Shown here piece after piece: positions 20,969 to 57,706 of a DNA stretch of 64,000 bases. Origin of the DNA: an uncultured Pelagibacteraceae bacterium (GTDB lineage: Bacteria; Pseudomonadota; Alphaproteobacteria; Pelagibacterales; Pelagibacteraceae). The stretch lies in NCBI GenBank assembly GCA_902540235.1, contig CACBLI010000007.1, forward strand, positions 1-64,000, read 5' to 3'. The notes under the pieces were generated by a model that was given only the letters and a program-made list of their open reading frames with translations, did not search any database and was not told where the DNA came from. Position 1 is the stretch's first letter. Each line of letters opens with the position of its first letter. Both the position numbers and the translations under genes were made by a program.

Positions 20969-21023
20969 TGGTAGGGCGAAAAGGACTCGAACCTTCACAG
21001 ATTGCTCTATTGGTTCCTAAGAC
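20969..21023 (-). pseudogene. 3' half of host tRNA-Leu (TAG), attL side
   Basis: On the minus strand this holds the anticodon loop CTTAGGA, the 3' anticodon stem ACCAA, a variable arm, the T arm GAAGG-TTCGAGT-CCTTT, the acceptor strand TCGCCCT, and an encoded CCA at 20969-20971. The 5' half is missing: sequence beyond 21023 is phage. The matching 5' half is 36.6 kb away at 57668-57706. Joined together they give a perfect anticodon stem TTGGT/ACCAA and a near-perfect acceptor stem, so this is a tRNA gene split by integration. Confidence 0.9.
21015..21023. repeat. attL core (9 bp)
   Basis: TCCTAAGAC here is repeated at 57668-57676 (attR). After one mismatch the next four bases AACG also match. 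The core covers the tRNA-Leu anticodon loop and the first stem bases, the usual position of a tyrosine-recombinase overlap region in a tRNA target. A third copy lies inside the phage tRNA-Leu at 21172-21180, because that tRNA has the same anticodon loop. Confidence 0.85.
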
Positions 21024-21125
21024 TAACGTATCTTACAAAACCTTTAACTACCAACACTCCTTTCTTCACCCATTGTATCAATGAATACAGTTTTGTATCC
21101 ATCATTGTATCCATTCTTTGACCAA

Positions 21126-21209
21126 TGGTAGGCGAGAGAAGACTCGAACTTCCACCTCTTTCGAGACCAGTTCCTAAGACTGGCGTGTCTACCGTTCCAC
21201 CACTCGCCC
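21126..21209 (-). tRNA. Phage-carried tRNA-Leu (TAG)
   Basis: A complete 84-nt class II tRNA. Acceptor is GGGCGAG/CTCGCCT with a G-T first pair, the D arm includes GGTAGAC, the anticodon arm CCAGT-CTTAGGA-ACTGG gives anticodon TAG, a long variable arm TCTCGAAAGAGG is present, the T loop is TTCGAGT, and CCA is encoded. It lies about 100 bp inside the left prophage end, next to the integrase. Its sequence differs clearly from the split host tRNA, but it reads the same codon, so it can replace the gene destroyed by integration. Confidence 0.95.
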
Positions 21210-21229
21210 AGAACATTGACAATTTGGAA

Positions 21230-21257
21230 GTTATACTCATCATTCTCTTTACTTCAA
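21230..21257 (-). promoter_or_regulatory. Probable sigma70-type promoter of the phage tRNA-Leu
   Basis: On the minus strand TTGAAG (21252-21257, overlapping the last integrase codons) is followed after 16 bp by TATAAC (21230-21235), and the tRNA 5' end is 21 bp downstream of the -10. This would let the host RNA polymerase make the replacement tRNA in the lysogen independently of phage regulation. It could also supply transcription into tig. Assigned by eye only. Confidence 0.5.
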
Positions 21258-22526
21258 CACCTTTCTACTATTGTGACCAATCAAAGGTGATACTTCAGCT
21301 TTTTTAGCTTTAACTTTCTTGTATTCCTCTAATTTAGTTATAGCAGTTTCAAGCACCTCATTTGTACTATGCGTGTAGTACTGAAGTGTAGTCTCAATAG
21401 ACTTATGTCCTGCTAAATGCTGAACTGCTTTTGGACTTACATCAGCTTCTACTAACCTAGTAATAAAAGTGTGTCTTGTTGAGTAAGGTGTATACTCATC
21501 ATTTAATCCTGATACTTTGATATACTTATACCAGTTATGTCTTAAAGAAGATTTAGATATAGGAAAGAAACGGTTGCCTACATTCTTCATAGCAACTTCA
21601 CGTCTTCTTTTTAATATCTCCATACATCTTTCAGTTAAAGGTATAGTAGACCATTTACCAGTTTTAGGTCTTTTGAAGACTAAATGTTTTTTACCAAAAT
21701 CAATTTGTTCTGGTGTTATTCTATTTAGTTCTCCATCGTGACGTACACCTGTATCTAGTGCAAAAACTATCACATCATAAAAATAACCATCTTCGTACTT
21801 CTGAATGGTTTTTAATAATGTTTGTTCTTCTGCAATTGATAAGGCAGGTTTAGGTTTACTCTCAGCACGTCTCTCATCTTGTATCCCATAGTTTTTAGCA
21901 CTTGGGTCAATACAATCATCAAGACTAAACAGTCTTTGTTTAATTGCAAATTGAGTTAGTTGCCTTAACAAACCTAATCGTTTGTTCACGGTATTAGTGC
22001 TACAAGAATTATAATTATTCATTCTCTTTTGTGCTGAATGAACAATCGCCCATTTCTTAAAGTCAGCTAAAGTAAATACATCGTGAAAATCTTTAAGTTT
22101 AGGATTTAAGTTTTCCCTGTCCTTAAAGAAAGCCAATATATCTTTAGCATAACTAGCAACAGTTTCACCGTGCTTTCCTTTCCAAGTATCCAATCTAACT
22201 AGGTCTTGATAAAGATTATTGATATATGCTTCACCCTTAATCTTTACATTATCAGTCAGAAGGAAACTTCTGTTTGCTAAACGGTCTTTCATTTGAGACT
22301 TCACCTTGATTGCTTTACCAAGTGCTTCCTCAAACTTCTCCAACTGTTTAGCGTCAGACATTGTATTATCAATATCTAACTTTACGGTTTCAGTCATACG
22401 CTTCGACTTCTTCTCACCGTTTACGTGGTACTCTTTATACTTAGATACCCATAAAGAATTATCACGCCTTAAAGTTATACCTTTCGGTAATGCTTCAAGG
22501 ATTTTTGCTTTTACTGCTTGTCTCAT
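21249..22526 (-). CDS. int: Tyrosine-recombinase integrase
   Basis: About 425 residues. Integrates and excises the phage at tRNA-Leu. The C-terminal catalytic domain shows the R of DTGVRHDGELN, the H-x-x-R box as STRHTFITRL, then HLAGHKSIETTLQYYTH with the nucleophilic Tyr. An N-terminal SAM-like core-binding domain lies around residues 110-210. I start at ATG 22526 because it has a strong Shine-Dalgarno (AAGGAG) inside the end of the preceding gene and overlaps its TGA as ATGA. The longer ORF to 22589 only reads back over that gene. The next feature downstream is the phage tRNA and the att site. Confidence 0.95.
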   Translation of the reverse strand: MRQAVKAKILEALPKGITLRRDNSLWVSKYKEYHVNGEKKSKRMTETVKLDIDNTMSDAKQLEKFEEALGKAIKVKSQMKDRLANRSFLLTDNVKIKGEAYINNLYQDLVRLDTWKGKHGETVASYAKDILAFFKDRENLNPKLKDFHDVFTLADFKKWAIVHSAQKRMNNYNSCSTNTVNKRLGLLRQLTQFAIKQRLFSLDDCIDPSAKNYGIQDERRAESKPKPALSIAEEQTLLKTIQKYEDGYFYDVIVFALDTGVRHDGELNRITPEQIDFGKKHLVFKRPKTGKWSTIPLTERCMEILKRRREVAMKNVGNRFFPISKSSLRHNWYKYIKVSGLNDEYTPYSTRHTFITRLVEADVSPKAVQHLAGHKSIETTLQYYTHSTNEVLETAITKLEEYKKVKAKKAEVSPLIGHNSRKVLK

Positions 22527-22951
22527 ATTTTTATACTCCTTGCAGTTTTTAGTTGGTTCTCTATCTTCAACTTCGGCACATCTTTCCAATCTGACGTAGT
22601 TCCGATAAAGAGTTTTTGAAGTCTTCTTCCTGTTGGTGTTAATTTAATCCAACTTAATCTTCTATTCTCGAATGGATTTACAACTCTTTCTACAAAACCA
22701 AGAGTATGTAAATCACTTACATTTCGAGATATTGAAGACAAGGAAATCACAACTCCAAAAAACTTGTGATACCATTCTCTTATAACCTGAGTGTTTAATT
22801 CTTGACCATCAGGTAAACAAGAGAGTGTCTTAAATGTTAAGACCAATTGTAATGGAATACCATTACCAAAAGTCTTCGCCTTAGACTTTGCTACTTCTTG
22901 CATAAACACTTTATCAAAGTGAATATTACTTGTTGTGCAACTGTAAGACAT
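22523..22951 (-). CDS. Winged-helix DNA-binding protein, candidate lysogeny regulator
   Basis: A 142-residue protein not assigned to a named family. Residues 45-110 look like a MarR/IclR-type winged helix: a helix pair around REWYHKFFGVVISLSSISRN (recognition-helix-like), then DLHTLGFVERV and a beta wing NRRLSWIKLTPTGRRL. It overlaps int by 4 bases (ATGA), so the two are translationally coupled. It is the best candidate in the prophage for a repressor or an excision-directionality factor. Function is inferred from fold-like pattern and position only. Confidence 0.6.
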   Translation of the reverse strand: MSYSCTTSNIHFDKVFMQEVAKSKAKTFGNGIPLQLVLTFKTLSCLPDGQELNTQVIREWYHKFFGVVISLSSISRNVSDLHTLGFVERVVNPFENRRLSWIKLTPTGRRLQKLFIGTTSDWKDVPKLKIENQLKTARSIKI

Positions 22952-23393
22952 TATTCTCCTTTCGATTTAACTTTATAACCTTCAACTTATCAGGACGGTT
23001 ATGAGAGAGTTTTGTCTGCGCTATCACATTTTCAATCGTAGACTTATATGGGTCGTAATGTTCAAACAATGGAATTACTTCACTGTCTTCTATTAGACCT
23101 TGTCGTCTTAGTTTATTGAAAGTGTATTGGATAACTGCGTCACCTATTTTTATTGATGAAGTCCTTTCATACTCATCATCAACTTCTACGGTTTTGCAGT
23201 AGTAAGGTAGGTCTCTAACTGCTTCAGTGTAAACTAAAGTGTTAGGATATTGGGAACGTAAGTCTGAAATATAATAATCAAAATCATCTATATCTCTCCA
23301 CAACTTACATCTTACGACCTTCCATACTTTGCAGACTACGCTACCTATATTCATAACGCACCTAGTCGAAAGTTTTACTTTATTTATAACCAT
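22926..23393 (-). CDS. Phage protein of unknown function
   Basis: 155 residues with no family I recognise. The N-terminus is rich in Cys and Val (residues 10-35), and the middle is acidic and Tyr-rich (DIDDFDYYISDLRSQYP). It overlaps the winged-helix gene by 26 bases and heads the three-gene run that ends in int. The operator-like palindrome at 23426 lies about 35 bp upstream of its start, so it may be a regulated early lysogeny gene. An alternative start at the internal Met 14 is possible. Confidence 0.55.
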   Translation of the reverse strand: MVINKVKLSTRCVMNIGSVVCKVWKVVRCKLWRDIDDFDYYISDLRSQYPNTLVYTEAVRDLPYYCKTVEVDDEYERTSSIKIGDAVIQYTFNKLRRQGLIEDSEVIPLFEHYDPYKSTIENVIAQTKLSHNRPDKLKVIKLNRKENNVLQLHNK

Positions 23394-23425
23394 ACTTAAC
23401 TCCTATTATTAAGTTATTTGTTTGC

Positions 23426-23441
23426 TTTTCACAAGTGCAAA
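23426..23441. promoter_or_regulatory. Operator-like palindrome upstream of the integrase operon
   Basis: TTTTCACAAGTGCAAA matches 15 of 16 positions of the perfect copy at 54853 (TTTGCACAAGTGCAAA). It lies just upstream of the 155-residue gene that begins the integrase run. A further partial half (CAACTTGTGG) follows at 23447-23456. Similar sites surround the phage RNA polymerase promoter region at 57526-57647, suggesting one regulator acts at both ends. Confidence 0.5.
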
Positions 23442-23549
23442 CTTTCAACTTGTGGATTAATTGCAATTTAGACTCAATATAAACTGCGTAAAAATAGATA
23501 AAAATTAATCTCGGTTTCCTATCTATTGTTCGTCACAACCCAAAAGCGA

Positions 23550-23720
23550 TTACTCTAAATCGTCTTCAGGTGTTTGATACAAGACTACCTTGTGTTCTAT
23601 CTTAGGTCTCTTGCTCAACTCACTTACAGTTTGAGATAATGCTTTCGCTAACTTATCCTTACCTTGTGTGTCGAGCATATGACCGAACTCAGGTAGTTCT
23701 TTGACTACTTGTATAATCAT
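23550..23720 (-). CDS. Small phage protein of unknown function (56 aa)
   Basis: ATG at 23720 preceded by AGGA at a suitable distance. The 56 residues are charged and probably helical (GKDKLAKALSQTVSELSKRP), with an acidic C-terminus (TPEDDLE). It follows the 82-residue gene by 8 bases and is probably translated from the same mRNA. It has no recognisable family. The 150 bp between its stop and the 155-residue gene hold the operator-like palindrome. Confidence 0.55.
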   Translation of the reverse strand: MIIQVVKELPEFGHMLDTQGKDKLAKALSQTVSELSKRPKIEHKVVLYQTPEDDLE

Positions 23721-23728
23721 TCCTATCC

Positions 23729-23977
23729 TTAGTTGAGGTGCTTACTAGCACTCTCTTTTGCTTCTGCTTTTATTTCGTCAAATTCTTTTTGTGAAACAAA
23801 TGCAACACCTCTCGTATGAGCCGTTTCGTGTAGGTGATTTATAGCAATTGCAAGTATAGGTAATGGCTTGATTAAGTTTTTCTTATCAGGACTAATCTCC
23901 ATACTTATATCAAACATACGTTGCCATAAGTCCTGAGGAATTTTTAAAGTTTCCGTCTTTTCTTTTTGTGCTTTCAT
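23729..23977 (-). CDS. Small phage protein of unknown function (82 aa)
   Basis: 82 residues, mostly helical by composition and Lys/Glu-rich at both ends (KAQKEKTETLKIPQDLWQRM at the start, EFDEIKAEAKESASKHLN at the end). The central PILAIAINHLHETAHTRG could be a helix-turn-helix but is too weak to call. A candidate phage promoter lies about 115 bp upstream (24091-24103). Confidence 0.55.
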   Translation of the reverse strand: MKAQKEKTETLKIPQDLWQRMFDISMEISPDKKNLIKPLPILAIAINHLHETAHTRGVAFVSQKEFDEIKAEAKESASKHLN

Positions 23978-24090
23978 TGCACTCCTAACAAATTAATCTT
24001 TCTGGTTAAGGAATAGTTCCAACGAATAGAAAGAAGTAAAGGTTCGCACTTGATTATTTAAAAACAAGTCTTATCTGTCATTGCAACAAA

Positions 24091-24103
24091 ATAAGTGGAA
24101 CTC
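24091..24103 (-). promoter_or_regulatory. Candidate phage RNA-polymerase promoter
   Basis: On the minus strand GAGTTCCACTTAT. It shares the GTTCCACTTA core with the sites at 54838 and 48059, all three in front of phage genes. The CCACT-TA core resembles the CACTATAG part of T7-family promoters. It lies in a 250-bp non-coding gap upstream of the 82- and 56-residue genes. A half operator-like sequence (CAAGTGCGAA on the minus strand) sits at 24043-24052. Confidence 0.4.
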
Positions 24104-24163
24104 ATTCCTGCGATTTACTTAATCACAAAAATAATATTATTCAATTGGTGCAACCCATAATTT

Positions 24164-24213
24164 AATCCGAACACAAATCGGATTGTCACTTTTTATCCGA
24201 ACTGACTTCGGAT
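24164..24213. repeat. Two tandem hairpins built from the same half-repeat
   Basis: AATCCGA/TCGGATT (24164-24184, 7-bp stem, 7-nt loop) and ATCCGAA/TTCGGAT (24195-24213, 7-bp stem, 5-nt loop) stand 10 bp apart, so the hexamer ATCCGA occurs four times in alternating orientation. They lie just past the stop of the 367-residue gene. On the plus strand the second hairpin is followed by TTTTGTT; on the minus strand it is not followed by a T run. It may be a transcript-end or protein-binding element. Confidence 0.6.
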
Positions 24214-24230
24214 TTTGTTCTACGTGAAAC

Positions 24231-25313
24231 TTAAATCAAACCTTTGGAATTTGTTTGAGATAAAAATTCTAAGTAAGTTTCGAACTCACCATCTGCAATT
24301 TCTTTTTTCTTTGTTGCTCTTGCAGTAAATATTTTAATCCACTTTTTAAATTGTTCGTGAAATCTTTTATAGTCCTTCCAATCGTAATTATATTGTTTAC
24401 TCCATTCCTTTCTTGCTTTGGAATTGAAGAACATTGTCTGCGTATACTTAGCAGGTTTTTTATCTTCGACTGCTTTGAGCCATAAGTTTACAAGCGTTTC
24501 ACCTGCAATTCCTGCCATTATATTATTATTAGTCTTATAATGCTTGGCTCTCTTGGCTATATAATCTATCACACTTTCCAGTAGTTCTTGATGAAGCATA
24601 CCAACGCTTTCTGCTATAGCTACTGCGTCCTGATAAGATATAGTAAAGTAGTCTTCATATAGCTTACCTTCCTTCTTCATCTTAGCCATCTTTATCACCA
24701 TATCTACTGGGTCTTTAATCTTGTGTCTGTCGCAGAAACTATTCAGTCCGTGATTAGCTACTGATATATCTTCTCCTTGTAAATGCGCCTTCAGTCTATT
24801 TATCTGTTGCTTAACTTTGGCTTTACTTGGTGTAGGAGAAAGCAAACCCATTGGATATAAGTCATCACTTACTTTACCCATCTGTATCATCTGACCTGAC
24901 AGATTAAATGGATTACCTTGTTGTCTTATTTGCTCTCCAAGTTTCTGGTATGCCTGTTCCATTTCATACATTGCTCTTGGTTTGATTGCGTTCTTTAATT
25001 TATCCAATGCGTCTTGTTGTTTCTTTAACCAGACCTTGTATATCTTGTTTGACTTCTTGTAATTGATAACTCTTTGTTCATTTTCTGCAGACAATAGTTT
25101 ACCTTCAAAGTAAAACATCTTGTCTCTCTTTTGAGTGGTAGCAATCCAGTGTGTCTGTTTAAGTGACAATGGTTTTGTATGGTACTCTAGCTTTACACTG
25201 CTATCTATTTTAACTGTAGGTCTACCAAGAAATATATCTAGTCTTCTCTCTAAATCCTTTTGTCTATCTTCAGTCTTTTGTTTTAATGTTTTCTTTTTTA
25301 ATAACTTAACCAT
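24231..25313 (-). CDS. Phage protein of unknown function (360 aa)
   Basis: About 360 residues, basic and strongly helical, with no membrane segments or catalytic motif I can name. The start MVKLLKKKTLKQKTEDR at 25313 is preferred over the ORF start 21 bases upstream because of its typical basic N-terminus. Features include many Lys-rich helices, the segment YYTISYQDAVAIAESVGM-like in the middle (residues about 225-240), and HYKTNNNIMAGIAGETL. It is isolated between two structured non-coding gaps, on the packaging side of the integrase genes. Confidence 0.6.
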   Translation of the reverse strand: MVKLLKKKTLKQKTEDRQKDLERRLDIFLGRPTVKIDSSVKLEYHTKPLSLKQTHWIATTQKRDKMFYFEGKLLSAENEQRVINYKKSNKIYKVWLKKQQDALDKLKNAIKPRAMYEMEQAYQKLGEQIRQQGNPFNLSGQMIQMGKVSDDLYPMGLLSPTPSKAKVKQQINRLKAHLQGEDISVANHGLNSFCDRHKIKDPVDMVIKMAKMKKEGKLYEDYFTISYQDAVAIAESVGMLHQELLESVIDYIAKRAKHYKTNNNIMAGIAGETLVNLWLKAVEDKKPAKYTQTMFFNSKARKEWSKQYNYDWKDYKRFHEQFKKWIKIFTARATKKKEIADGEFETYLEFLSQTNSKGLI

Positions 25314-25339
25314 ACTGAACTGTAAGTACCACAAAGTTC

Positions 25340-25567
25340 CTGAAGTTTCAAAACAGATAATGAGAGAGATAATACGAAATAATTTTTTGAAAGAAAAAAT
25401 CTACAAAAAAGTCTGTCGGTAGTCTAGAAGACTAACGTAAATCAAAACTATCACTCGGTTTCCTGCAGAAAAATTGTATATTGGATACAATACAGGGTAG
25501 TACCCCCATTTATTTTTGCTATAGGGTCGAGGGGGTAAAAAAAATTTTGTGTATATACGTGAACTTG
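25340..25567. other. Structured non-coding region of the prophage
   Basis: No plausible gene in about 230 bp. It contains the att-like site (25414-25439), a perfect 7-bp inverted repeat ATTGTAT-ATTGG-ATACAAT (25473-25491), GGGTA-G-TACCC (25495-25505), and TACCCCC paired with GGGGGTA across 23 nt (25501-25537). These GC-rich tracts stand out in an AT-rich genome. In the packaged phage this is where a genome end, packaging site or replication origin could lie, but nothing proves it. Confidence 0.55.
25414..25439. repeat. Second att-like site inside the prophage
   Basis: TGTCGGTA-GTCTAG-AAGACTAACGTA matches the reconstructed attP TGTCGGTA-TCTCCT-AAGACTAACGTA at 20 of 26 positions with identical spacing; all six differences are in one central block. 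The two flanks are the sequences that border the crossover in attP (57658-57665 and 21019-21030). The central difference replaces the Leu anticodon-loop sequence. Confidence 0.55.
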
Positions 25568-25831
25568 TCAGATTTTTTCGTCAAAACTTTTTAAGTCAAA
25601 GAACTTATCAAACATTGAGTACTCTACGGCATAACCTAAAAAGTCATTAGCGTACTTCAGTATAAACTCTCTAGCCATTTTAGATTTAACTTCTGGTGAA
25701 ACTTTGAGTTTCTTTCTTGGAAAATCTGCCTGAACAATAAATTCTTTTATTATTTTCTCTACATTCTTTTTACTTTTATTCTTTGAAAAAAGAGCTTTAA
25801 GATAGATTACCTTTGGTTCTTTGTGGTTCAT
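25568..25831 (-). CDS. Small phage protein of unknown function (87 aa)
   Basis: 87 residues, very Lys-rich (NKSKKNVEKIIKEF, FPRKKLKVSPEVKSKMAREF) with an acidic, aromatic C-terminus (EYSMFDKFFDLKSFDEK). No recognised family. It is the first gene after the candidate promoter at 25924 and the last before the structured non-coding region. Confidence 0.55.
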   Translation of the reverse strand: MNHKEPKVIYLKALFSKNKSKKNVEKIIKEFIVQADFPRKKLKVSPEVKSKMAREFILKYANDFLGYAVEYSMFDKFFDLKSFDEKI

Positions 25832-25896
25832 AACTTTATTTACTATAAGATATACTCATAGTCAGATGTTGTTGGTTGCACTTATATAAGGATAAA

Positions 25897-25920
25897 GATT
25901 AACTATAGTTTAACTATAGT
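25897..25920. repeat. Tandem repeat of TTAACTATAG
   Basis: Two adjacent copies of TTAACTATAGT-like sequence in the gap between the 87- and 78-residue genes, immediately downstream (minus strand) of the candidate phage promoter at 25924. Each copy reads ACTATAGTTAA on the minus strand, so each carries an ACTATAG element similar to the initiation region of T7-type promoters. The purpose is unknown. Confidence 0.5.
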
Positions 25921-25923
25921 AGT

Positions 25924-25944
25924 ATCCTAATAGTGGCACTTAAT
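25924..25944 (-). promoter_or_regulatory. Candidate phage RNA-polymerase promoter
   Basis: On the minus strand TTAAGTGCCACTATTAGGATA. It has the CCACT core of the other candidate sites (24091, 48059, 54838) and, with CACTATTAGG, comes closest of all to the CACTATAGGG start region of T7-family promoters. It lies in a gap about 95 bp upstream of the 87-residue gene. Confidence 0.45.
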
Positions 25945-25957
25945 TAAAAAATCAAAA

Positions 25958-26194
25958 TCAAACAACTTTAAGAGCATTTCTAACCATAGAAGCTATTTTC
26001 TTACTATACTTTGCTCTAGTTCTGTTTTTTCTTTTCTTTGCAGTCGTCCTTGCGTACTCTTTAGAGGACAATCTGTTTATTACGCTTTCTGGTAAATACC
26101 TTTCACCAGTGACACTAGATTTTTTACCTGATTTAGTTCTCCATTTTTGAGCCGACCAGTTCTTCAAATCTTTTTGAGGTTGTTTAAGTGACAT
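25958..26194 (-). CDS. Small basic phage protein (78 aa)
   Basis: 78 residues, strongly basic, with the segment KNWSAQKWRTKSGKKSSVTG and a C-terminus KKRKNRTRAKYSKKIASMVR. Similar small lysine-rich proteins next to the terminase are a regular feature of marine T7-like phages. Function is unknown; nucleic-acid binding during packaging is a guess from charge. Its ATG overlaps the stop of the next upstream gene by one base (TAATG). Confidence 0.65.
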   Translation of the reverse strand: MSLKQPQKDLKNWSAQKWRTKSGKKSSVTGERYLPESVINRLSSKEYARTTAKKRKNRTRAKYSKKIASMVRNALKVV

Positions 26195-26367
26195 TAGCTT
26201 TTATATCCACCACCTGCTTTTTTATATGCTTTCGCTAGTGCTTGTGCTTTTCTTGCACTCCATTTACCACTAGCAGTACCATAAGAAGCACTATTGAGTA
26301 TTCTACTGAATATACGCTTTCTCAAAGTAGGTTTGGTATAATTACCTGATTTATTTACTGTACTCAT
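26194..26367 (-). CDS. Small basic phage protein next to terminase (57 aa)
   Basis: 57 residues from ATG 26367, ending at the TAA at 26194-26196. The C-terminal half SASYGTASGKWSARKAQALA is followed by a Lys/Gly-rich end (KKAGGGYKS). It overlaps the terminase stop by 4 bases on one side and the 78-residue gene by 1 base on the other, so it is clearly part of the operon. A conserved-looking but unnamed marine podophage protein. Confidence 0.7.
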   Translation of the reverse strand: MSTVNKSGNYTKPTLRKRIFSRILNSASYGTASGKWSARKAQALAKAYKKAGGGYKS

Positions 26368-28031
26368 ATTATTTTAATCCAACTGTTTTCTGTTTTATCT
26401 CCAAAATATTTCTCTATTTCAGCATTAAGTAAGTCTTCTTTTCTTTGTTTATATGAAAGTTCTTGGTCTTTAGCTAAATGCTGAACCCAATGATGACAAG
26501 CAACCTGAAGACAATCAATTCTGTCATCGTGTGGCAATGAATGTATTTCTTTTTGTAATCTACTTATTTGGTAGAAAAGCTGATACTTCAATGCGCTTTC
26601 CTGAGGGTACAACATATTAGTACCTTCATAGTCTTTTTTGATTACTGTTTTATCTACAATAATTCTATGCTGAGATATTAGAGGTTCTAATGTATCTAAT
26701 ATCCTTCTATGTTTATTAGAAGTCTGTCTAACCATTTCTGTAGTACAAGGATATTCTTTAATTAAATAAGGTTTTAATAATGCTTCAAACATTCCTTGAC
26801 CAAAGTTTTCTTCTATTAAAATCTTATTAACTTTATTCTTCTTAGCTACTTCTACTAATTTAGATAATGTATGTTCTGAATAACCACTATTGAAACCACC
26901 AATATCTACTAAATAAATATTACCATTTAAGAATTTAGTGACACAATAAGCCGTTTCGTCAGAACCTTTACCAGAAGGGTCAATTGCCATTACTGTAGAT
27001 ATATAAGGCAACCACTGACCTTGTACTTCCATAGGTCTATAATAAGCGTCTCCTTGTAGTCCTACGTTAGGTAAATCGTTATGTTGTAATTCAGGAGAAC
27101 TAGCCCAAATAACTTTTTCTGGTGCGTTCTCAGGATTTAAATTCATAACTGATAAATCTGATAGTTTTAGTGGAAACTTGTTTAGGTCACTCAACGTAGT
27201 ATCAAGCTGATACTGCATATTAAAACCTAGTCTTCCATAACTAGCTTCTCTTTCTAATAAATCTTTTTCATCAAATCTTGATGGGTCTGTAGGTTTACCA
27301 ATTAATTCTATATTCCAAGTATTATTAATTATAGGCGCAAGATTAGAACCATAAGACTTTATTTGTTTCTCACTAGGGTATCTAGCAGTCCAATATCTAA
27401 TCTTATAACCTCTCTCTTGAAGTTTATTATAAATACTTTGTTCTGTTTGTGGTGTACCTAAATATATAATTCTAGAAGTGTCAGGTTTAATTACTGCTTC
27501 AAATTCTTTAATAGCTTCAGATAACTTGTCTCTCATAAACTGAGTTTGAGTATTTCCTGAAGTTTCTACATCATCAGCTACAACTAAGTCTGCACGTGAA
27601 CCTGTAATTTGAGAAGTAATACCTAATGACTTAACTGTTGGTTGTTGCGAAGCAGAAGCCGTATTTACATCAAAACTAATCTTTGACTGTCTTTGGTCGT
27701 CTTTAGGATATAGATGTTGAAGCAATGGCATTTCGTGAAGTAATCTTAAACAGAAAGTACTAAAGTCATCGGCTCTATTCTTTGAAGCAGATACAACAAG
27801 TATATTAATGTTTGGATTAAGTAAGATACGCCATAAAACATAACTTGCAGTTATCCAACTCTTTCCTACACCTCTAAAAGCACTAATAATTATTCTACTG
27901 TCTCCATTAGCAATATAGTCAGCTATATCGTATTGAACTTTAGTAGGTTGAGGTAAATTTAAATGCTTCCAAGTGATGTATAGAAAATTCCTAAAGTCAG
28001 TTATTTTTGACAGGATTTTTTCGTTTTTCAT
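26364..28031 (-). CDS. terL: Terminase large subunit
   Basis: A 555-residue DNA-packaging motor of T7 gp19 type. The ATPase half has Walker A in SAFRGVGKSWITA and Walker B as LVVADDVET. The C-terminal nuclease half has MAIDPSGKGSDETAY (first metal-binding Asp), IEENFGQGMFEALL, and SLPHDDRIDCLQVACHH (last Asp pair). It works with the small subunit encoded just upstream, which it overlaps by 35 bases, and docks on the portal. Length is normal for the family. Confidence 0.95.
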   Translation of the reverse strand: MKNEKILSKITDFRNFLYITWKHLNLPQPTKVQYDIADYIANGDSRIIISAFRGVGKSWITASYVLWRILLNPNINILVVSASKNRADDFSTFCLRLLHEMPLLQHLYPKDDQRQSKISFDVNTASASQQPTVKSLGITSQITGSRADLVVADDVETSGNTQTQFMRDKLSEAIKEFEAVIKPDTSRIIYLGTPQTEQSIYNKLQERGYKIRYWTARYPSEKQIKSYGSNLAPIINNTWNIELIGKPTDPSRFDEKDLLEREASYGRLGFNMQYQLDTTLSDLNKFPLKLSDLSVMNLNPENAPEKVIWASSPELQHNDLPNVGLQGDAYYRPMEVQGQWLPYISTVMAIDPSGKGSDETAYCVTKFLNGNIYLVDIGGFNSGYSEHTLSKLVEVAKKNKVNKILIEENFGQGMFEALLKPYLIKEYPCTTEMVRQTSNKHRRILDTLEPLISQHRIIVDKTVIKKDYEGTNMLYPQESALKYQLFYQISRLQKEIHSLPHDDRIDCLQVACHHWVQHLAKDQELSYKQRKEDLLNAEIEKYFGDKTENSWIKII

Positions 28032-28218
28032 CGAATGGTAATTCTTCTAATAGTTTTCCTAGTGGGTTATCTTCTGTTGGAACTGCGTCTATTCCATTGT
28101 CTCTTAAAAACTGTCTAGCTACATTTAAATCTGCAGATTTTGCTTTTGGGTCTTTTACTCTCTTTAATAGTTCTTGTGCTAAAACTCCGTGTAATTCTTT
28201 TAATTTACTATCACTCAT
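27997..28218 (-). CDS. terS: Terminase small subunit (T7 gp18-like)
   Basis: A 73-residue helical, charged protein (KLKELHGVLAQELLKRVKDP) directly upstream of and overlapping terL. Size and the pattern of an N-terminal helix followed by SADLNVARQFLRDNGIDAVP match small terminases of T7-like marine phages, which include the same N-A-R-Q-F-L-R-D-N-G segment. It selects phage DNA for packaging. Confidence 0.8.
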   Translation of the reverse strand: MSDSKLKELHGVLAQELLKRVKDPKAKSADLNVARQFLRDNGIDAVPTEDNPLGKLLEELPFDEKRKNPVKNN

Positions 28219-30512: not shown

Positions 30513-30542
30513 TTACTAACTCTCCTTAATTGTGATAGTTTT

Positions 30543-51773: not shown

Positions 51774-53361
51774 CCAAACGACCTGTATCTTTGTTCCAAA
51801 TTAAATCACAAGCAACACCAGTGTCACCTGTAAATCTATTTTTTAAAACTCTTACAGTCATTATATTGTTTTCTGTTTCCGATTGTTGGTCTCTTTCAAA
51901 ACCAATCACTGCGTCTGATAATTGTGCAAGTGAATGAGAACCCCTGAGGTGTGAAAGTGACGTTTGTATACCTTCTTCGTGTCCTGTTTTACTGTCCACT
52001 CTTTTCAAGTGTGAAACAACAAACATTCCACAATTAACTTCTTCAACTAACTTTCTAAGGTTAGTCATTAAGTTGTCGATATTACGTCTCTCATCACCCT
52101 CAGAAATTCCTGATATAACAATGGAGATATGGTCTAAGAAAATATATTTACAGTTAAGACCTTGAACCATAAATCTAATTCTATTTAGTAGGTCATCACT
52201 GTCTGAACTTCCAAAGTGGTCATAAAAGCATACCTTGTCTTTTATTTTTTCCCACGCTGAAATTAAATCTTTATCTGAAATCTTTTTTCTAACTTCTGGT
52301 ATATGTATTGGTTGGTTTACTGCAAGAGAGACTAAACCTCTTACACTTCTCTTTACGCTTTCTTCTAAAGCAATGTATCCAACTTTATTTCCTTTATTAA
52401 TTAAATCAAAAGCAAGTTCTCTACAAACTTGTGACTTACCAGTTCCTGAACCTGCACATAGTAAAACTAATTCTTTAGGTCTGATACCTGATAGTTTTTT
52501 GTTTAATCCATCAAATACATATGGAACACTTTCAACATAATCATCTTTTAATAATAAATCTTTTGTATCATTACCTTCAATAATACCTTGTGGTGTGTAA
52601 TGTTTAGCTTCAAAGATTGCGTCTATAATTTTATTACCTTTACCTTTTTGTAATAATTCACTTGCGTCTTTACCTTGAAGTTTAGCAATGAAACATTTTT
52701 TTACTGGTAAAATATTTGCACATTCAACACTAGCTTTCATTCCTGCTTCATCAGTGTCAAACATCAGGATTATCTTTTCAAATTTAGATAACCATTCTAA
52801 TTCTTGTTTTATATATTTTTTAGCTGACGCAGTTCCTGAAGGTATAGAACAAACAGGATATTTATTGGAATTTACTTTTGATACACTAAGGCAATCTAAT
52901 TCACCTTCTGTTAAAACTATTGTTCTTCCACCATCACGCCAATTTTGCTGACCGAATAAAGTAATTTTATCAGTATCACCAAGCCACTTAAAAGTTTTAT
53001 CTTGAAATCGTAGCTTTTGCGCTACCTTGTTATAATGCTTGTCATAGTAATTAGCGATTTGAACTGGTTTACCTTCATATTCGCCTTGCTGATAATCGAA
53101 TACTTTACAAGTTTCCTCGTCTATATTTCGTCTATCTAATCTATTGTAATTTCCATTTATCATATCAGTATTAATTTTTGTTTGAATTTGTTCTGGTAGA
53201 ACACCAGTTGTTTTTTGATAATCGTGGCAACCGAAACAATAAGTATGGTTCTCGTAAACTCCGAGATTGTCTCGGCTACCACAATTTTCACAAGGTGCGT
53301 GATGAAGAAACTTTTCTTCAGGATTGGTCTTCAAGTTCCATCTCCTGTAAATCAGCTTCAT
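51751..53361 (-). CDS. Primase-helicase (T7 gp4-like)
   Basis: 536 residues that combine primase and replicative helicase. An N-terminal zinc ribbon has CENCGSRDNLGV and HTYCFGCHDYQ. The TOPRIM primase domain shows VLTEGELDCLSVSKV and LMFDTDEAGMKA. The RecA-like helicase has Walker A LCAGSGTGKSQVCRELAFDL, Walker B IFLDHISIV, and the H4 segment RGSHSLAQLSDAVIGFERD. Length and order match T7 gp4A. It overlaps the amidase gene by 44 bases. Confidence 0.95.
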   Translation of the reverse strand: MKLIYRRWNLKTNPEEKFLHHAPCENCGSRDNLGVYENHTYCFGCHDYQKTTGVLPEQIQTKINTDMINGNYNRLDRRNIDEETCKVFDYQQGEYEGKPVQIANYYDKHYNKVAQKLRFQDKTFKWLGDTDKITLFGQQNWRDGGRTIVLTEGELDCLSVSKVNSNKYPVCSIPSGTASAKKYIKQELEWLSKFEKIILMFDTDEAGMKASVECANILPVKKCFIAKLQGKDASELLQKGKGNKIIDAIFEAKHYTPQGIIEGNDTKDLLLKDDYVESVPYVFDGLNKKLSGIRPKELVLLCAGSGTGKSQVCRELAFDLINKGNKVGYIALEESVKRSVRGLVSLAVNQPIHIPEVRKKISDKDLISAWEKIKDKVCFYDHFGSSDSDDLLNRIRFMVQGLNCKYIFLDHISIVISGISEGDERRNIDNLMTNLRKLVEEVNCGMFVVSHLKRVDSKTGHEEGIQTSLSHLRGSHSLAQLSDAVIGFERDQQSETENNIMTVRVLKNRFTGDTGVACDLIWNKDTGRLVEGNFDE

Positions 53362-53818
53362 CAGTCAAGCCATCTTGGAACTTATAACCCTTTACGTCTT
53401 CGTTAAGTAAATATTCTCTTACGTTAAAGTTTGGACAAGTCTTTGCTTCGTCCAACATATAATGACCGACTATTTGTGCGTCTGGGTATTTTAATAATAA
53501 TTCTTCTAAAGTTTTCTTTAATGCTTCCCATTGTTCAGCAGTAAAATTATCTTCTGGTTTTTTCCAATCTTCTTCTAAAGCACCACCAACAAGACATAAG
53601 CCATAACTGCAGTGATTATATCCTTTGACGTGAGCTTGAATAGCATTGTCTTCCCTTCCTTGTTCGACTTCACCATTTCTTCTGATTACTTTTCCATAAC
53701 CAATTTTAAGCCAACCTCTTTCTCTATGCCATCTGTCTATATCTTTAGCACCTATATCCTGACTTGGTCTCGTTTGAGAACAATGGATAACTATATATTT
53801 AGTTTCTGGTCTTGCCAT
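53318..53818 (-). CDS. N-acetylmuramoyl-L-alanine amidase / endolysin (T7 gp3.5-like)
   Basis: 166 residues of the amidase_2 family. Zinc ligands are His in YIVIHCSQTRPSQDIG, His in QIVGHYMLDEAKTCPNF (with the K-x-C that completes the T7 site) and the catalytic Tyr in RRNGEVEQGR-adjacent segments. It cleaves peptidoglycan for lysis and in T7 also inhibits the phage RNA polymerase. The C-terminal 25 residues are an acidic extension not found in T7. Confidence 0.92.
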   Translation of the reverse strand: MARPETKYIVIHCSQTRPSQDIGAKDIDRWHRERGWLKIGYGKVIRRNGEVEQGREDNAIQAHVKGYNHCSYGLCLVGGALEEDWKKPEDNFTAEQWEALKKTLEELLLKYPDAQIVGHYMLDEAKTCPNFNVREYLLNEDVKGYKFQDGLTDEADLQEMELEDQS

Positions 53819-53819
53819 T

Positions 53820-54290
53820 TTATTTTCCTTTAATTTCTATTAACCAATCTTGTGGAAAGGTTTGTTTTGTTGATTGAATACAGTGATAGCGAAATCCAAA
53901 TAATTCACACCACTTGCCATAAGTAGTTTTGGACTTCTTACCTATTTTAGTTTTTGAGTTCGAAAAAATAAATCGAATATCTAATTCTGGGTTCTGCAAT
54001 TTAATAGTCTTCATCTTTTTTCTATCTGCAGAATTAAAAGCACCTTTAGTTTCTATAATAAAAAAATTCTTTATTGGGAAATCAGGTGTATATGTTTTCT
54101 TAATTTCAGGTTGGAAGTAAGTAATCTTCATTCCTTCGTAAGTAAAATTAATCTTTTGCTTAGTTAGATAATTAAAGACTTCTTCTTCCAAACCTGATTT
54201 TAGGACAACACCACTAGAAGTCTTTACTCTCTTGAACTTCTGACGTTTCATTTGAGATAACTTCTGGTTTGGGTGTTGCTTCATAGCCAT
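53820..54290 (-). CDS. Endonuclease I, Holliday-junction resolvase (T7 gp3-like)
   Basis: About 156 residues of the T7 endonuclease I family. The active-site order is E in LKSGLEEEVFNYL, D in KKTYTPDFPIKNF, and E-x-K in FFIIETKGAFNSADRKK. The C-terminal segment KTTYGKWCELFGFRYHCI is also characteristic. It cuts branched DNA and host DNA. I prefer the ATG at 54290 over the TTG at 54329. The gene overlaps the SSB end in another frame. Confidence 0.93.
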   Translation of the reverse strand: MAMKQHPNQKLSQMKRQKFKRVKTSSGVVLKSGLEEEVFNYLTKQKINFTYEGMKITYFQPEIKKTYTPDFPIKNFFIIETKGAFNSADRKKMKTIKLQNPELDIRFIFSNSKTKIGKKSKTTYGKWCELFGFRYHCIQSTKQTFPQDWLIEIKGK

Positions 54291-54801
54291 CTTCTTTTTC
54301 AAAAAGGTTGCTATCTTTTCCCTCAACAAGTTCGATAACTTGTACTGCTTTTAATCTAGCAGTAATACCTGCGCCTAACATTGGCGTATAGTAAGATACT
54401 AAATTATAAGCGACACGCATTTTAGAACCACCCCAAATAATAGTACTCAATGGGATTGGGTTTTTCTTTGCGTCAAACAATTGGGGTTTTTGTGAAAACT
54501 TTTCTTTAGTCTTCTGGTTTACCCCAGTTGCTTTCATTTTGAATTTGAAGAAAACGTAATCGCCTTCTTCTGTATAAGGTTTCGGTGCTTTTTTAATCCC
54601 TTTACCTTTATGGTTTTGTTCAGCTAATTTAAGACTGTCATCTAAAGCTGAAGTATATAACTTCAACATTTCAGTTGCGTCTGATTTAGCGACCTTCAAG
54701 GTCACCTTATATTCACCTGCTTCGTTAAAACGAACATCAGGTTTATTTAGGTGAGGATAAATAGCTTCTCCGACAACACTTATGTTTGTTGTTGGTTGCA
54801 T
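54214..54801 (-). CDS. Single-stranded DNA-binding protein (T7 gp2.5-like)
   Basis: 195 residues of OB-fold type: FNEAGEYKVTLKVAKSDATE, PKPYTEEGDYVFFKFKMKAT and PIPLSTIIWGGSKMRVAYNL match the gp2.5 family in marine podophages. The acidic C-terminal tail ends in Phe (ETSEVQESKDF), the feature used by T7 gp2.5 to contact polymerase and helicase. It is the first gene after the RNA polymerase and has a candidate phage promoter directly upstream. Confidence 0.9.
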   Translation of the reverse strand: MQPTTNISVVGEAIYPHLNKPDVRFNEAGEYKVTLKVAKSDATEMLKLYTSALDDSLKLAEQNHKGKGIKKAPKPYTEEGDYVFFKFKMKATGVNQKTKEKFSQKPQLFDAKKNPIPLSTIIWGGSKMRVAYNLVSYYTPMLGAGITARLKAVQVIELVEGKDSNLFEKEDGYEATPKPEVISNETSEVQESKDF

Positions 54802-54837
54802 ATTATACTCCTATAATTTGGCTTCGTTTATGTAGCC

Positions 54838-54850
54838 ATAAGTGGAACTT
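54838..54850 (-). promoter_or_regulatory. Candidate phage RNA-polymerase promoter before SSB
   Basis: On the minus strand AAGTTCCACTTAT, followed by GG. This is the best-placed member of the CCACT family: it lies about 37 bp upstream of the SSB start, in the gap after the RNA polymerase gene, where T7-like phages begin middle transcription. A perfect operator-like palindrome sits immediately upstream (54853-54868). Confidence 0.5.
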
Positions 54851-54852
54851 TA

Positions 54853-54868
54853 TTTGCACAAGTGCAAA
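54853..54868. promoter_or_regulatory. Perfect operator-like palindrome TTTGCACAAGTGCAAA
   Basis: Two 7-bp arms TTTGCAC/GTGCAAA around AA, the clearest member of a repeated family (also 23426, 57576, 57632, 57526). It lies between the RNA polymerase stop and the candidate promoter for SSB. It has the size and symmetry of a binding site for a dimeric helix-turn-helix regulator. Confidence 0.55.
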
Positions 54869-54871
54869 GGT

Positions 54872-56542
54872 CTAGACGCAAAAAAAGACACTTTGCTTTA
54901 CTAAAGCTAAATCCAAGTTTCCTCTTTGAGGAATATTAGGAAATTTCTTCATATTCTTATAAGAAAGCATTTGTCTCATTTCCATCGCCCAGTTAGCAAG
55001 AACATCGTTTTCATATATTTCACAAAATGCTTCTCTTATAGCTTCTGACAACATATCTACATCAGGTGCTACACAACCAAAACTATCGTGAATTAAACTA
55101 AAGTTAGTCACTCCTTTTTGTTTAGCTTTAACAACTGCTAAATGTAAAACACTAGCGTCAAGAGAATGTATAAAGTTAGGACAAATAGATTGTGCAGTTT
55201 TTCTTTTATCAATTACATCAGTATCTGATTGTATAGATAATTTAATTATACTGTCTCCCATCTTAGTCTTCACCCTTTTGCTTTCTTTTTTATAACACAT
55301 CATTTGTACTGGAAATCCTAAAGGTGTTGTCCAAGTCACTGGTAAGTTTTCTGAAGCAACTAATCGAGATACTTTTTTCAAAAAATCCATAATCTCTTTT
55401 GCACCAACTATTACATCATTAATACTTGACCAAACAATTGGTTGAAGAAAGTTAGTAGCTTTAAATAAATCATTACCGAAGTTATGTTGTACTCCACGTT
55501 CTTTTAATTCTTTTTCAACGTGGTCTTGTAGATATTGCCTACAAGAATATTGAGTTAAAGAATATGGTAAACACATTACAGGTTTCTTACATAGCTTTCT
55601 GTCTACACCATAATCTAACCACTTCTTAGCTAATGGGTCAGGATTTACTTCTAATTTTTCTATCACTTTTTCAGATACGGTTCTGTAAACATCTTCTGGT
55701 TTATTTGATGGAATTAGATTAGTAGCTTTACCACCTATTTCGTCTCTCATCATTGCTGAATAATGTTGTAAACCAGAATTACTACAGTCTGATTGTATTG
55801 GTAGTGTAGTAATAAAACTAGCGTCAAAGTCTGTTTCTGCAAAGTCTTTGAGTTCAAAACACCAAGCAAGAAAACAAAAAGATTTATCAGCTTGTGACCA
55901 ATAAGTATCTTCTAGTGGGTTCTTTGCACAATTTATAAATCGTTGCATATTATCTTTAACCCAATCTAATCTTGTTTGAATGTCTTCTTTATCTACTTCT
56001 CCAAATAATCCTGCACCTGCGATTGCAAAACTATCAAAACTACTATTTTCTTTCATTTGTTTTCCATACTTAAATTTAAGTAATGCTCTAGAATAGTCAG
56101 CACCTTGTGGAGATAACATTGCAGGTTTTGGATAACCTCTTGACCTAAAGTCTATTTGGTGAGGAAAGAAGAAAGACCTATCTTTTAATAAATTAGCTTC
56201 TTCAAGAATTTGTCTTACCTGTATATATTTAGATTTTGATTTAGCTTGTTCTTTGTAAATATTAGACGCTTCTCTTTTCCATCTAACTAAACTCTCCTTA
56301 TTGGTAGCTATATCTATTGGTTTGACTGGAAGTTCCATACTTTGAGGATTTACTGGTAGCTTTCCCAAAGTCACATCTTTTTTAATTAATGTTTCTATGA
56401 CATCTAAAACAGGTTTATTTATAACCCATTCAGTTTCCTGCATAATATTTATGCTATCGTAAAGGTCTTTCATTTCGTGACCTCTATTTTTAAGTTCTTC
56501 TAAGTATCTTCTGTTTGACGCTTTTACTAAATTATAGTGCAT
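54872..56542 (-). CDS. Phage RNA polymerase, C-terminal catalytic part
   Basis: 556 residues from ATG 56542, holding the full palm, fingers and thumb of a T7-type single-subunit RNA polymerase. Catalytic elements are intact: first Asp in PIQSDCSNSGLQHYSAMMRD, the O-helix with Lys and Tyr in RKLCKKPVMCLPYSLTQYS (equivalents of T7 K631 and Y639), and the second Asp in FSLIHDSFG. The end is a hydrophobic foot (KQSVFFCV). The start has GAGG 6 nt upstream and overlaps the end of the N-terminal ORF by 11 bases in the +1 frame. It would be made as a separate subunit or joined by frameshifting. Confidence 0.9.
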   Translation of the reverse strand: MHYNLVKASNRRYLEELKNRGHEMKDLYDSINIMQETEWVINKPVLDVIETLIKKDVTLGKLPVNPQSMELPVKPIDIATNKESLVRWKREASNIYKEQAKSKSKYIQVRQILEEANLLKDRSFFFPHQIDFRSRGYPKPAMLSPQGADYSRALLKFKYGKQMKENSSFDSFAIAGAGLFGEVDKEDIQTRLDWVKDNMQRFINCAKNPLEDTYWSQADKSFCFLAWCFELKDFAETDFDASFITTLPIQSDCSNSGLQHYSAMMRDEIGGKATNLIPSNKPEDVYRTVSEKVIEKLEVNPDPLAKKWLDYGVDRKLCKKPVMCLPYSLTQYSCRQYLQDHVEKELKERGVQHNFGNDLFKATNFLQPIVWSSINDVIVGAKEIMDFLKKVSRLVASENLPVTWTTPLGFPVQMMCYKKESKRVKTKMGDSIIKLSIQSDTDVIDKRKTAQSICPNFIHSLDASVLHLAVVKAKQKGVTNFSLIHDSFGCVAPDVDMLSEAIREAFCEIYENDVLANWAMEMRQMLSYKNMKKFPNIPQRGNLDLALVKQSVFFCV

Positions 56543-57500
56543 TTTTAACCTCATCTGGTTTGTTTTCGTGATTGTGTTTTCTTCCGTAATATCCACCAAC
56601 AAAAGGATTATATTCCCATTTTCTAGGTGGCATTAACATTGGAAGGTATTTAGGTTGAAGTGCTTCATTCTTGATATTGAAATTCCTAATCTCGTCTATG
56701 ATTTTTCTAGTAGCTTCAACATAAGTGACTGTCTTGAATTTATTTAGCTTTCTATTCTGGTGTTTTACTAAACCCAGTTTTTCTAGAAAACCAATCATCT
56801 TAACTCCAAGATGAAGTCTCCCTTCCTTGCCCCAATCGTCAAACTCCAGTTGGTTTTTATTAATCATATAAGTCCAAACTTTATGCTTATATTGATACCT
56901 ATTTACCTTCTGAGGTATGTTCTTTCCTGCAAGTCTTTTATATATCCTATTATAATTTTCTTTATCTCTATCCTTGAACATCGTTATTCTAGCTTCCATC
57001 ATCAAGCCAGTTCCTATCTTAATAGCTAGTTTATTCATTGTGGTTTCATTGCTGATACCATCAATTGTATTCTTCAAAACTATCAACGAACAGGTATCCC
57101 AAACTGTATGTTCTTTAGAAAGAAATACACCTTTATCAAAAGCTGATTTTGGTAGACATTGACACAATAATTTTAGTGCAGTCATTCGATTACCTGCGCC
57201 ACCATCTTCCATAGTCTTAATATCGCCATTAATTAATAAGGACAGTTTAGTTATATATTTCTGTTGTAATACTAGACCGTGAAGTGTTGTGCTTTCTTGA
57301 CCTTTAGCAATAGCGTCTTTTACGGTCTTTCTGAAACGGTCTATACCACCTTGTAGCATAGCGTCTTCAAATTCTAATTCTTCTTGAATACGTTTTGTAT
57401 AATCTGAATTATCTTTAAACTTGCCACCTACGCCTACTTTGACAAGTTCTTGTAATTGTAATTGTAGGTCTTGTTGTTGTTGATTTAATATATCGGACAT
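56532..57500 (-). CDS. Phage RNA polymerase, N-terminal part
   Basis: 322 residues that match the N-terminal domain of T7-type RNA polymerase: helix-rich start, HLGVKMIGFLEKLGLV (aligns with the T7 segment HVGVRCIEMLIESTGMV) and PPRKWEYNPFVGGYYG near the end (aligns with T7 PPKPW...GGGYW). After GGYYG it continues 16 residues and stops. The catalytic remainder is in the overlapping downstream ORF. This is the first phage gene after the right attachment site, about 200 bp from the host tRNA promoter. Confidence 0.88.
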   Translation of the reverse strand: MSDILNQQQQDLQLQLQELVKVGVGGKFKDNSDYTKRIQEELEFEDAMLQGGIDRFRKTVKDAIAKGQESTTLHGLVLQQKYITKLSLLINGDIKTMEDGGAGNRMTALKLLCQCLPKSAFDKGVFLSKEHTVWDTCSLIVLKNTIDGISNETTMNKLAIKIGTGLMMEARITMFKDRDKENYNRIYKRLAGKNIPQKVNRYQYKHKVWTYMINKNQLEFDDWGKEGRLHLGVKMIGFLEKLGLVKHQNRKLNKFKTVTYVEATRKIIDEIRNFNIKNEALQPKYLPMLMPPRKWEYNPFVGGYYGRKHNHENKPDEVKNAL

Positions 57501-57657
57501 TTAGTGAACATTTCTCCATTTATTTATTGCAGAAGTGCAGGATACAGTAGTTTTGATACAATTTGATACAAGACTATCGCACAAGTGCAAAGATTGATTT
57601 TTTAAAAAAACACAAGCAACACAATAGTAATTCGTCACTTGTGCAATGAAGAAGAAG
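57501..57657. promoter_or_regulatory. Right-end control region of the phage RNA polymerase
   Basis: Non-coding. It holds operator-like sites at 57526-57541 (12/16), 57576-57591 (14/16) and 57632-57647 (12/16), two direct repeats of TTTGATACAA (57552-57561, 57562-57571), and a hairpin CACAAG/CTTGTG followed on the minus strand by seven T (57604-57643) that could be a weak terminator. I see no single convincing sigma70 promoter here. The region must contain the phage early switch, because it lies between the integration site and the RNA polymerase start. Confidence 0.6.
57604..57643 (-). terminator. Weak terminator-like hairpin before the phage RNA polymerase
   Basis: CACAAG (57638-57643 on the minus strand) pairs with CTTGTG (57611-57616) across a 21-nt loop, followed by a run of seven T on the minus strand. 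The long loop makes it weak. It could stop transcripts that enter the prophage from the host tRNA-Leu promoter. It overlaps one of the operator-like sites. Confidence 0.35.
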
Positions 57658-57667
57658 TGTCGGTATC

Positions 57668-57706
57668 TCCTAAGACCAACGCGTCTACCAATTCCGCCAT
57701 CGCCCC
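57668..57706 (-). pseudogene. 5' half of host tRNA-Leu (TAG), attR side
   Basis: On the minus strand this gives the 5' acceptor strand GGGGCGA, the D arm with GGTAGAC, the 5' anticodon stem TTGGT and the loop CTTAGGA, then turns into phage sequence. The sequence beyond (GATACCGACAC...) cannot complete a T arm or acceptor. Joined to 20969-21023 it rebuilds a complete tRNA-Leu. The 9-bp att core is 57668-57676. Confidence 0.9.

Follow-up and report, generated by a model that had tools for sequence, protein, structure and literature searches.

A 64,000-nucleotide stretch of DNA from an uncultured Pelagibacteraceae bacterium (positions 1 to 64,000, forward strand, of contig CACBLI010000007.1 in assembly GCA_902540235.1; hereafter, the window) contains an integrated T7-like prophage that divides the host transfer RNA (tRNA) gene tRNA-Leu(TAG) and carries a different tRNA-Leu(TAG) of its own just inside its left end. 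We consider it very probable that this arrangement represents tRNA-dependent lysogeny by a T7-like phage of SAR11, a very abundant marine group. The evidence comprises the anatomy of the insertion, the empty site in relatives, the uninterrupted phage attachment site (attP) in viromes, the copy number of the tRNA gene in relatives, and the recurrence of the same junctions in other lysogens. The original prediction, which was made from the sequence of the window, had proposed that the lysogen depends on the phage tRNA, and the comparative analysis supports this interpretation.

The split host gene and its empty site

The 3′ half of the host tRNA-Leu(TAG) gene (20969 to 21023, minus strand) lies at the left attachment site of the prophage (attL), and the 5′ half (57668 to 57706, minus strand) lies at the right attachment site (attR). 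The two halves overlap in a 9-bp repeat, TCCTAAGAC on the plus strand and GTCTTAGGA as read in the tRNA (nucleotides 30 to 38), whose copies at 21015 to 21023 and 57668 to 57676 define an integrated unit of 36,653 bp. When the 400-base flanks were joined, ARAGORN called a single 85-nt tRNA-Leu(TAG) with the TTGGT/ACCAA anticodon stem that had been predicted from the two halves. As had also been claimed, neither phage arm restores the gene: no tRNA was detected at the attL or attR junction of the window by ARAGORN or by Infernal with Rfam models. Other ARAGORN calls in the window were tRNA-Asp and tRNA-Val (about 14.1 to 14.3 kb), and the sole tRNA-Leu was the phage copy at 21126 to 21209.

Downstream of the split gene lies an open reading frame (19531 to 20955, minus strand) that we take to be tig, encoding trigger factor, the name given in the original prediction. 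Relatives were compared at this site using the best 80 of 511 loci from a scan of a genome collection with trigger factor, with titles naming Pelagibacteraceae or Pelagibacterales. ARAGORN found one tRNA-Leu(TAG) upstream of tig in 80/80 loci. The gene was of the 85-nt host type in 75 of these, 12 matching the joined window gene exactly and 63 being 95 to 98% identical to it; four of the 80 carried an 84-nt gene of the phage type, and the last (L065) is itself a lysogen in which ARAGORN matched the phage tRNA. Because the joined halves reproduce an intact gene found in 12 of the 80 relatives, and all 80 have tRNA-Leu(TAG) at this position, chance is not a plausible account of the two halves. 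The locus with the closest tig (L027) is colinear with the window to the left and right of the insertion, with identities of 91.2% over 5.5 kb and 98.2% over 3.9 kb. This colinearity, together with the 85-nt genes at tig, indicates that the halves are contiguous in uninfected relatives, and no contrary relative was found. These comparisons confirm that the split-tRNA arrangement in the window is real.

The probable promoter of the split gene, TTGGAC-15-TATATA (57723 to 57749, minus strand; identified by eye), now reads into the prophage. The TTGGACAA element and the A+T-rich stretch that follows it are conserved upstream of the host tRNA gene in aligned relatives. A promoter scanner that requires a spacer of 16 to 18 does not list this site.

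The phage tRNA-Leu(TAG) is an intact gene of 84 nt with an encoded CCA end (21126 to 21209, minus strand; ARAGORN; Infernal RF00005, 53.5 bits), located 39 bp downstream of the integrase stop codon. It shares 73% identity with the host gene, from which it differs in the anticodon stem while retaining the 9-bp core; the predicted complete and clearly different copy is therefore present. Its minimum-energy fold was not a cloverleaf and was no better than that of shuffled sequences (z score, −0.54), and ARAGORN and Infernal are the basis for identifying the gene as a tRNA. A search of viral contigs for an exact 48-nt piece of the gene gave no match. Among phages with 88 to 92% identical integrases (the window compared with L137, L138, and L108), the tRNA-Leu(TAG) alleles are clearly different although their flanks are similar, a pattern that suggests exchange of the tRNA among phages.

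Between the phage tRNA and the core lies one attP arm (21024 to 21125, minus strand), with arm-type-like TTGTATC motifs at 21073, 21093, and 21105 (plus-strand letters); the arm on the RNA polymerase side (57501 to 57667, minus strand) has the reversed form, GATACAA, at 57555 and 57565. Five of the 19 TTGTATC copies in the window (both strands) fall within the two arms, which make up 0.42% of its length (binomial p = 1.5e-8). With three heptamers on the tRNA side and two, in reverse orientation, on the polymerase side, these motifs look like arm-type integrase sites. In virome contigs L137 and L138, which encode integrases 89 and 92% identical to that of the window over the matched parts, the integrase, tRNA-Leu(TAG), arm, core, other arm, and start of the RNA polymerase gene follow one another uninterrupted. 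Their arms closely match both ends of the window prophage, and the predicted attP thus occurs free in viromes. The strand-exchange points in the window were resolved to the 9-bp core. An imperfect inverted repeat, AGTGTTGGTA ... TACCGACACT, was seen by eye around the attP core (L137, 2790 to 2860) and at both ends of the window prophage. We also considered whether a difference at stem nucleotide 28 avoids self-integration. The attP and the phage tRNA differ there in 18 of 21 distinct pairs, but the commonest host stem, TCGGT (59/80 loci), also differs from attP at this position, and the idea is left as a lead.

Recurrence in other lysogens and in free phages

Four further lysogens were identified (G044, G209, G213, and AG-904-G11, the last being locus L065), and in all four the phage tRNA, the arm, and the host 3′ half follow in the same order at attL as in the window. 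The integrase precedes the tRNA in G044, in G209 (as colinear DNA), and in AG-904-G11 (as a related open frame of 452 codons). In G044, the integrase is 88% identical to that of the window and the right end of the prophage 97.4% identical over 5.3 kb; both attL and attR were read, and GTCTTAGAA is present at both ends, as it is in 9/11 native genes of the same genus. The right end in G209 is 99.9% identical over 6.2 kb, a 10.1-kb alignment running from the prophage into tig is 94.1% identical, and the phage tRNA is the same as in the window. An attR with the host's own 5′ half was read in G044 and G209; G213 and AG-904-G11 were read at attL. G044, G209, and G213 belong to genus g4 rather than to the genus of the window host, and their junctions bear the tRNA halves of g4 itself. 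Given a prophage end that is 99.9% identical and carries the same tRNA in a host of another genus, lysogeny by these phages appears, from the G209 sequence, to cross genera within SAR11. No intact native tRNA-Leu(TAG) pattern was found in G044, G209, or G213, whereas exactly one was found in each of 11 control genomes of g4 that had been selected as at least 92% complete. Completeness is only about 80% in G209 and G213, yet in both the native locus was read and is split (in G213, on the attL side only).

A profile of seven integrases recovered 53 virome loci. Three weak partial matches with no tRNA nearby (L200 to L202) and two loci truncated within 13 bases after the integrase match (L165 and L166) were set aside, leaving 48. 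A tRNA-Leu(TAG) starts 34 to 337 bases after the integrase match in 43/48, and the attP core lies beyond it in 42 of those 43; the remaining locus, L177, stops 26 nt past the tRNA. Many of the 43 loci are near-copies, since they yield 22 distinct combinations of a 20-nt attP stretch and a 20-nt tRNA stretch. Neither a tRNA (ARAGORN) nor a core was found behind the integrase in L160, L161, L162, L164, and L169 (5/48). The core word occurs once in L169, inside the integrase match, and what reads like a polymerase gene comes directly after the integrase in L160 and L162. L167, L168, and L174 carry the loop variant CTTAGAA in the phage tRNA and in attP alike. Among six records of named phages, ARAGORN placed a tRNA-Leu(TAG) behind the integrase in Eyrgjafa, HTVC025P, HTVC041P, and HTVC011P; the AP013543 locus stops 40 bases beyond its integrase match. 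In the record of phage Gjalp (L009, MT375524.1), a run of 100 N (5338 to 5437) lies exactly between the CTTAGGA of the tRNA loop and the CTTAGGA of the attP core, as if the assembly had stumbled over the repeat.

Proposed dependence of the lysogen and rival explanations

In the proposed mechanism, the integrase would act across the 9-bp core to recombine attP with the one tRNA-Leu(TAG) gene of the host, in its anticodon region, cutting the host gene in two and rebuilding it at neither end. The lysogen would then read CTA and CTG codons with the phage tRNA, which we infer to be expressed, charged, and essential. Excision would restore the host gene and remove the phage tRNA in one step; since the two events are coupled, a lysogen that lost the phage tRNA without precise excision should die. 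The cell is thus probably tied to the virus by the tRNA arrangement, as judged from sequence comparison. If this dependence holds, SAR11 prophages at this site cannot simply decay, and a lineage that inactivated the phage tRNA without precise excision would be lost. The split tRNA-Leu(TAG) beside tig also offers a simple search mark for such lysogens in single-cell genomes.

The proposed dependence requires that tRNA-Leu(TAG) be single copy and needed. An intact-gene pattern was run over 247 genomes of the family; outside the window's genus it often fails for reasons of sequence. Among the 76 genomes of that genus, including the window's own, 67 had one match, nine had none, and none had two, in line with the predicted economy of one gene per anticodon. 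The single match in the window genome is the phage gene; a search of this incomplete assembly for another intact tRNA-Leu(TAG), which would be a host copy, found none. The other tRNA-Leu genes found have anticodons TAA, CAA, and GAG, and a GAG anticodon is not expected to read CTA or CTG. These codons occur 64 and 23 times, respectively, in the 7657 codons of the 21 window open reading frames taken as host genes.

Several observations weigh against dependence. The window assembly is a draft in 22 contigs (90.17% complete) with 19 tRNA matches, compared with 33, 32, and 30 in three near-complete relatives; the single-copy claim therefore rests mainly on the relatives, and a second host copy may lie in the parts of the genome missing from the assembly. 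Nine of the 76 genomes lack a pattern match, and G085 (genus g5) has two. Three of the nine (L142, L143, and L144) carry a variant intact tRNA-Leu(TAG) beside tig, two (L145 and L150) have a partial tig at a contig end and no tRNA, and four have no tig match. The phage tRNA had also been predicted to have its own promoter. A putative site, TTGAAG-16-TATAAC, agrees with the consensus at 9/12 positions, and a TTGAAR-16-TATAAC/G match is common to L137, L138, and L152. However, across 32 distinct upstream regions (31 from virome loci plus the window) the mean best score was 8.4 versus 8.0 for shuffled sequences, and a consensus scanner listed no minus-strand promoter site upstream of the phage tRNA. 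This part of the prediction is plausible but weakly supported, and we do not accept the promoter as established. Finally, ARAGORN called an 89-nt tRNA-Leu(TAG) across attL of G209. Such a call would be expected if the phage arm and the host 3′ half together formed a functional tRNA at the attL junction, the outcome of classical tRNA integration. In the window, however, neither ARAGORN nor Infernal made such a call, and Infernal found only the phage tRNA in the loci of G209, G044, G213, and AG-904-G11 and in the window prophage region; the likeness of the arm to a tRNA 5′ half goes with the inverted repeat around the core (by eye). We rejected rebuilding at attL as extremely unlikely.

An alternative view of the phage tRNA is that it serves lytic growth, by supplying codons or evading host tRNA cleavage, and that its match to the split host gene is incidental. 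Such functions have been proposed for phage tRNAs (mentioned in PMC10865867), and the isolated phages HTVC025P, HTVC011P, HTVC041P, and Eyrgjafa keep the tRNA. Against this stands its coupling to the integration site: every one of the 43 tRNA-bearing virome loci has tRNA-Leu(TAG), adjoining a core from the anticodon region of the same tRNA in 42, and the five loci without such a core are also without a tRNA. A purely lytic function thus seems very improbable, although the phage tRNA may have a second role besides lysogeny. It is likewise highly improbable that neither copy is needed, with another tRNA-Leu copy or wobble reading by tRNA-Leu(GAG) covering CTA and CTG and no bond arising. The incompleteness of the assembly leaves room for this view, but the absence of a genome with two matches among the 76 of the genus, the lack of an intact native copy in three lysogens of another genus against its presence in 11/11 controls, and the decoding expected of GAG all argue otherwise. 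As for an assembly artefact, in which phage and host DNA were joined at a common 9-bp word, the draft state of the assembly in its 22 contigs would permit one. Yet a single contig holds both junctions, the separate assemblies G044, G209, G213, and AG-904-G11 contain the same type of junction with their own host halves, and the junctions are those predicted by the free attP in viromes; we give an artefact virtually no chance. Dependence on the phage tRNA remains the reading that we favor.

The 84-nt genes at the native host site bear on what may follow such an exchange. A tRNA-Leu(TAG) of this length stands behind a host-type promoter in L038, L139, L072, L080, L084, and L140 (L038 and L139 have identical tig and are perhaps one genome). 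These genes are 93 to 96% identical to the phage tRNA of L153/L158, 90 to 94% identical to that of the window, and 77 to 80% identical to the usual host gene. Over the 4 kb upstream, L038, L072, L080, and L084 have open frames resembling those of L027, and no integrase was recognized by eye. When the short type was mapped on a quick tree of 87 tig proteins, it required five changes, all forced by well-supported branches, and its clustering is barely beyond that of shuffled labels (mean, 5.9 changes; as low in 54/500). The usual type is present in the relatives nearest to L038, L072, and L084 (91 to 95% identity in tig nucleotides) and to L080 (88%). L072, L080, L084, and L140 share a flanking cassette in which the region between the tRNA and tig holds degenerate stretches that resemble a tRNA-Leu 5′ half in direct and inverted orientation; because the cassette is common to all four, one allele may have spread among them by recombination. 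No half-tRNA remnant was found before tig in L038. The gene of L149, in genus g5, is also 84 nt long, making another SAR11 clade an alternative source to a phage. It is possible, if doubtful, that in some SAR11 lineages a prophage-derived tRNA has replaced the native tRNA-Leu(TAG) at its own locus, becoming a permanent housekeeping gene whose altered stem in the bacterial attachment site (attB) possibly confers resistance to integration. If these genes are phage derived, they show that the exchange can become permanent. One narrow literature search, which says little, found no paper on phage tRNAs replacing host tRNA genes.

The prophage and known systems

The prophage (21015 to 57667, including one copy of the core) was delimited by the core copies and characterized as T7-like, of the pelagiphage type, by a PHROGs search of 20 of its longer proteins. 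Structural matches were to large terminase, major head, head-tail adaptor, head assembly, tail, tail fibre, and internal virion proteins; other matches were to integrase, exonuclease, DNA polymerase, primase/helicase, amidase, single-strand binding protein, and a T7-like RNA polymerase. Of the 20 proteins, four were without a match and a fifth hit only a family of unknown function. The RNA polymerase is divided between two minus-strand open reading frames, an N-terminal part of 322 aa (56532 to 57500; positions 3 to 260 of the phrog_414 profile) and a C-terminal part of 576 aa (54872 to 56602; positions 258 to 814). Integration leaves the RNA polymerase gene downstream of the host tRNA promoter, away from the integrase and tRNA side (57501 to 57750). 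No terminator-like site was found by the scanner between attR and this gene, and a candidate at 57570 to 57640 was dropped since its folding was no better than that of shuffles (z score, −0.52).

The tyrosine integrase (446 aa; 21249 to 22589, minus strand; phrog_1, E = 6.2e-45) has its relatives among pelagiphages, with which it shares an HTFITRL block in alignment. Among named phages, the Pelagibacter phages Gjalp and Eyrgjafa have the closest integrases (39.1% identity), followed by HTVC025P (33%), HTVC041P, and HTVC011P (31%). Gjalp and Eyrgjafa (Fussvirus) are thus near yet different; Eyrgjafa also carries tRNA-Leu(TAG) behind its integrase, and in the part of PMC8163748 concerned with these two phages, the authors predict that they are temperate and derive a putative integration site from the tRNA, offering no proof.

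Dependence of this kind has been described before, including in SAR11, and the window contains a different phage that is very probably of the same mechanism class. The sections of Chen et al. (2019; PMC6811365) on integration describe SAR11 phages arranged in this way at tRNA-Leu(TAG) beside trigger factor: uv-Fonsiphage-EPL and HTVC025P/HTVC011P are, like the window prophage, T7-like podoviruses of SAR11, and their own tRNA-Leu is said there to replace the lost function. uv-Fonsiphage-EPL has an 11-bp core and 39.4 kb and infects freshwater Fonsibacter, compared with 9 bp, 36.7 kb, and a marine Pelagibacteraceae host for the window. The window prophage matches the tRNA-Leu(TAG)-integrating pelagiphages in being T7-like, in having its own RNA polymerase and its own tRNA-Leu, and in its site beside tig; we do not claim a genus placement. 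A related design is described in PMC8631192 for the Rhizobium phage vTRX32-1 group, which is related to Autographiviridae, has a 12-bp core in tRNA-Leu, and carries a tRNA-Leu presumed to be a replacement. According to its authors, that phage tRNA lacks the 12-bp motif, whereas the window phage tRNA keeps the 9-bp core. Classical tRNA integration, in which attP contains a long identical part of the tRNA, does not describe the window, where identity extends over only 9 bp and no junction tRNA is found; a pelagiphage-like metagenome genome with 46 bp identical to host tRNA-Leu, noted in PMC3861242, provides the contrast.

The proven case, as presented in Guerrero-Bustamante and Hatfull (2024; PMC10865867), is that of mycobacteriophages such as Fionnbharth, in which a tRNA-defective mutant forms clear plaques because its integration is lethal. 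The discussion of that paper describes a lambda-like integrase with paired arm-type sites around the core in its phages, names one Lactobacillus prophage, and calls for work beyond actinobacteriophages; its main text contains "pelagi" and "SAR11" zero times. Fionnbharth and the window prophage both have a tyrosine integrase, a short core in a host tRNA gene that is not rebuilt, a phage tRNA of the same isotype, and putative arm-type sites. They differ in that Fionnbharth uses tRNA-Lys(TTT) in an actinobacterium and is backed by genetic proof, whereas the window prophage uses tRNA-Leu(TAG) in SAR11 and is known from its sequence. Of the features that define tRNA-dependent lysogeny, the window has the tyrosine integrase, an attB within a tRNA gene with a 9-bp core (the definition asks for about 10 bp) that rebuilds no tRNA, and a phage tRNA with the same anticodon, TAG. 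With its empty site, free attP, and several lysogens, this locus is very probably a natural and clear-cut example of tRNA-dependent lysogeny from beyond the actinobacteria.

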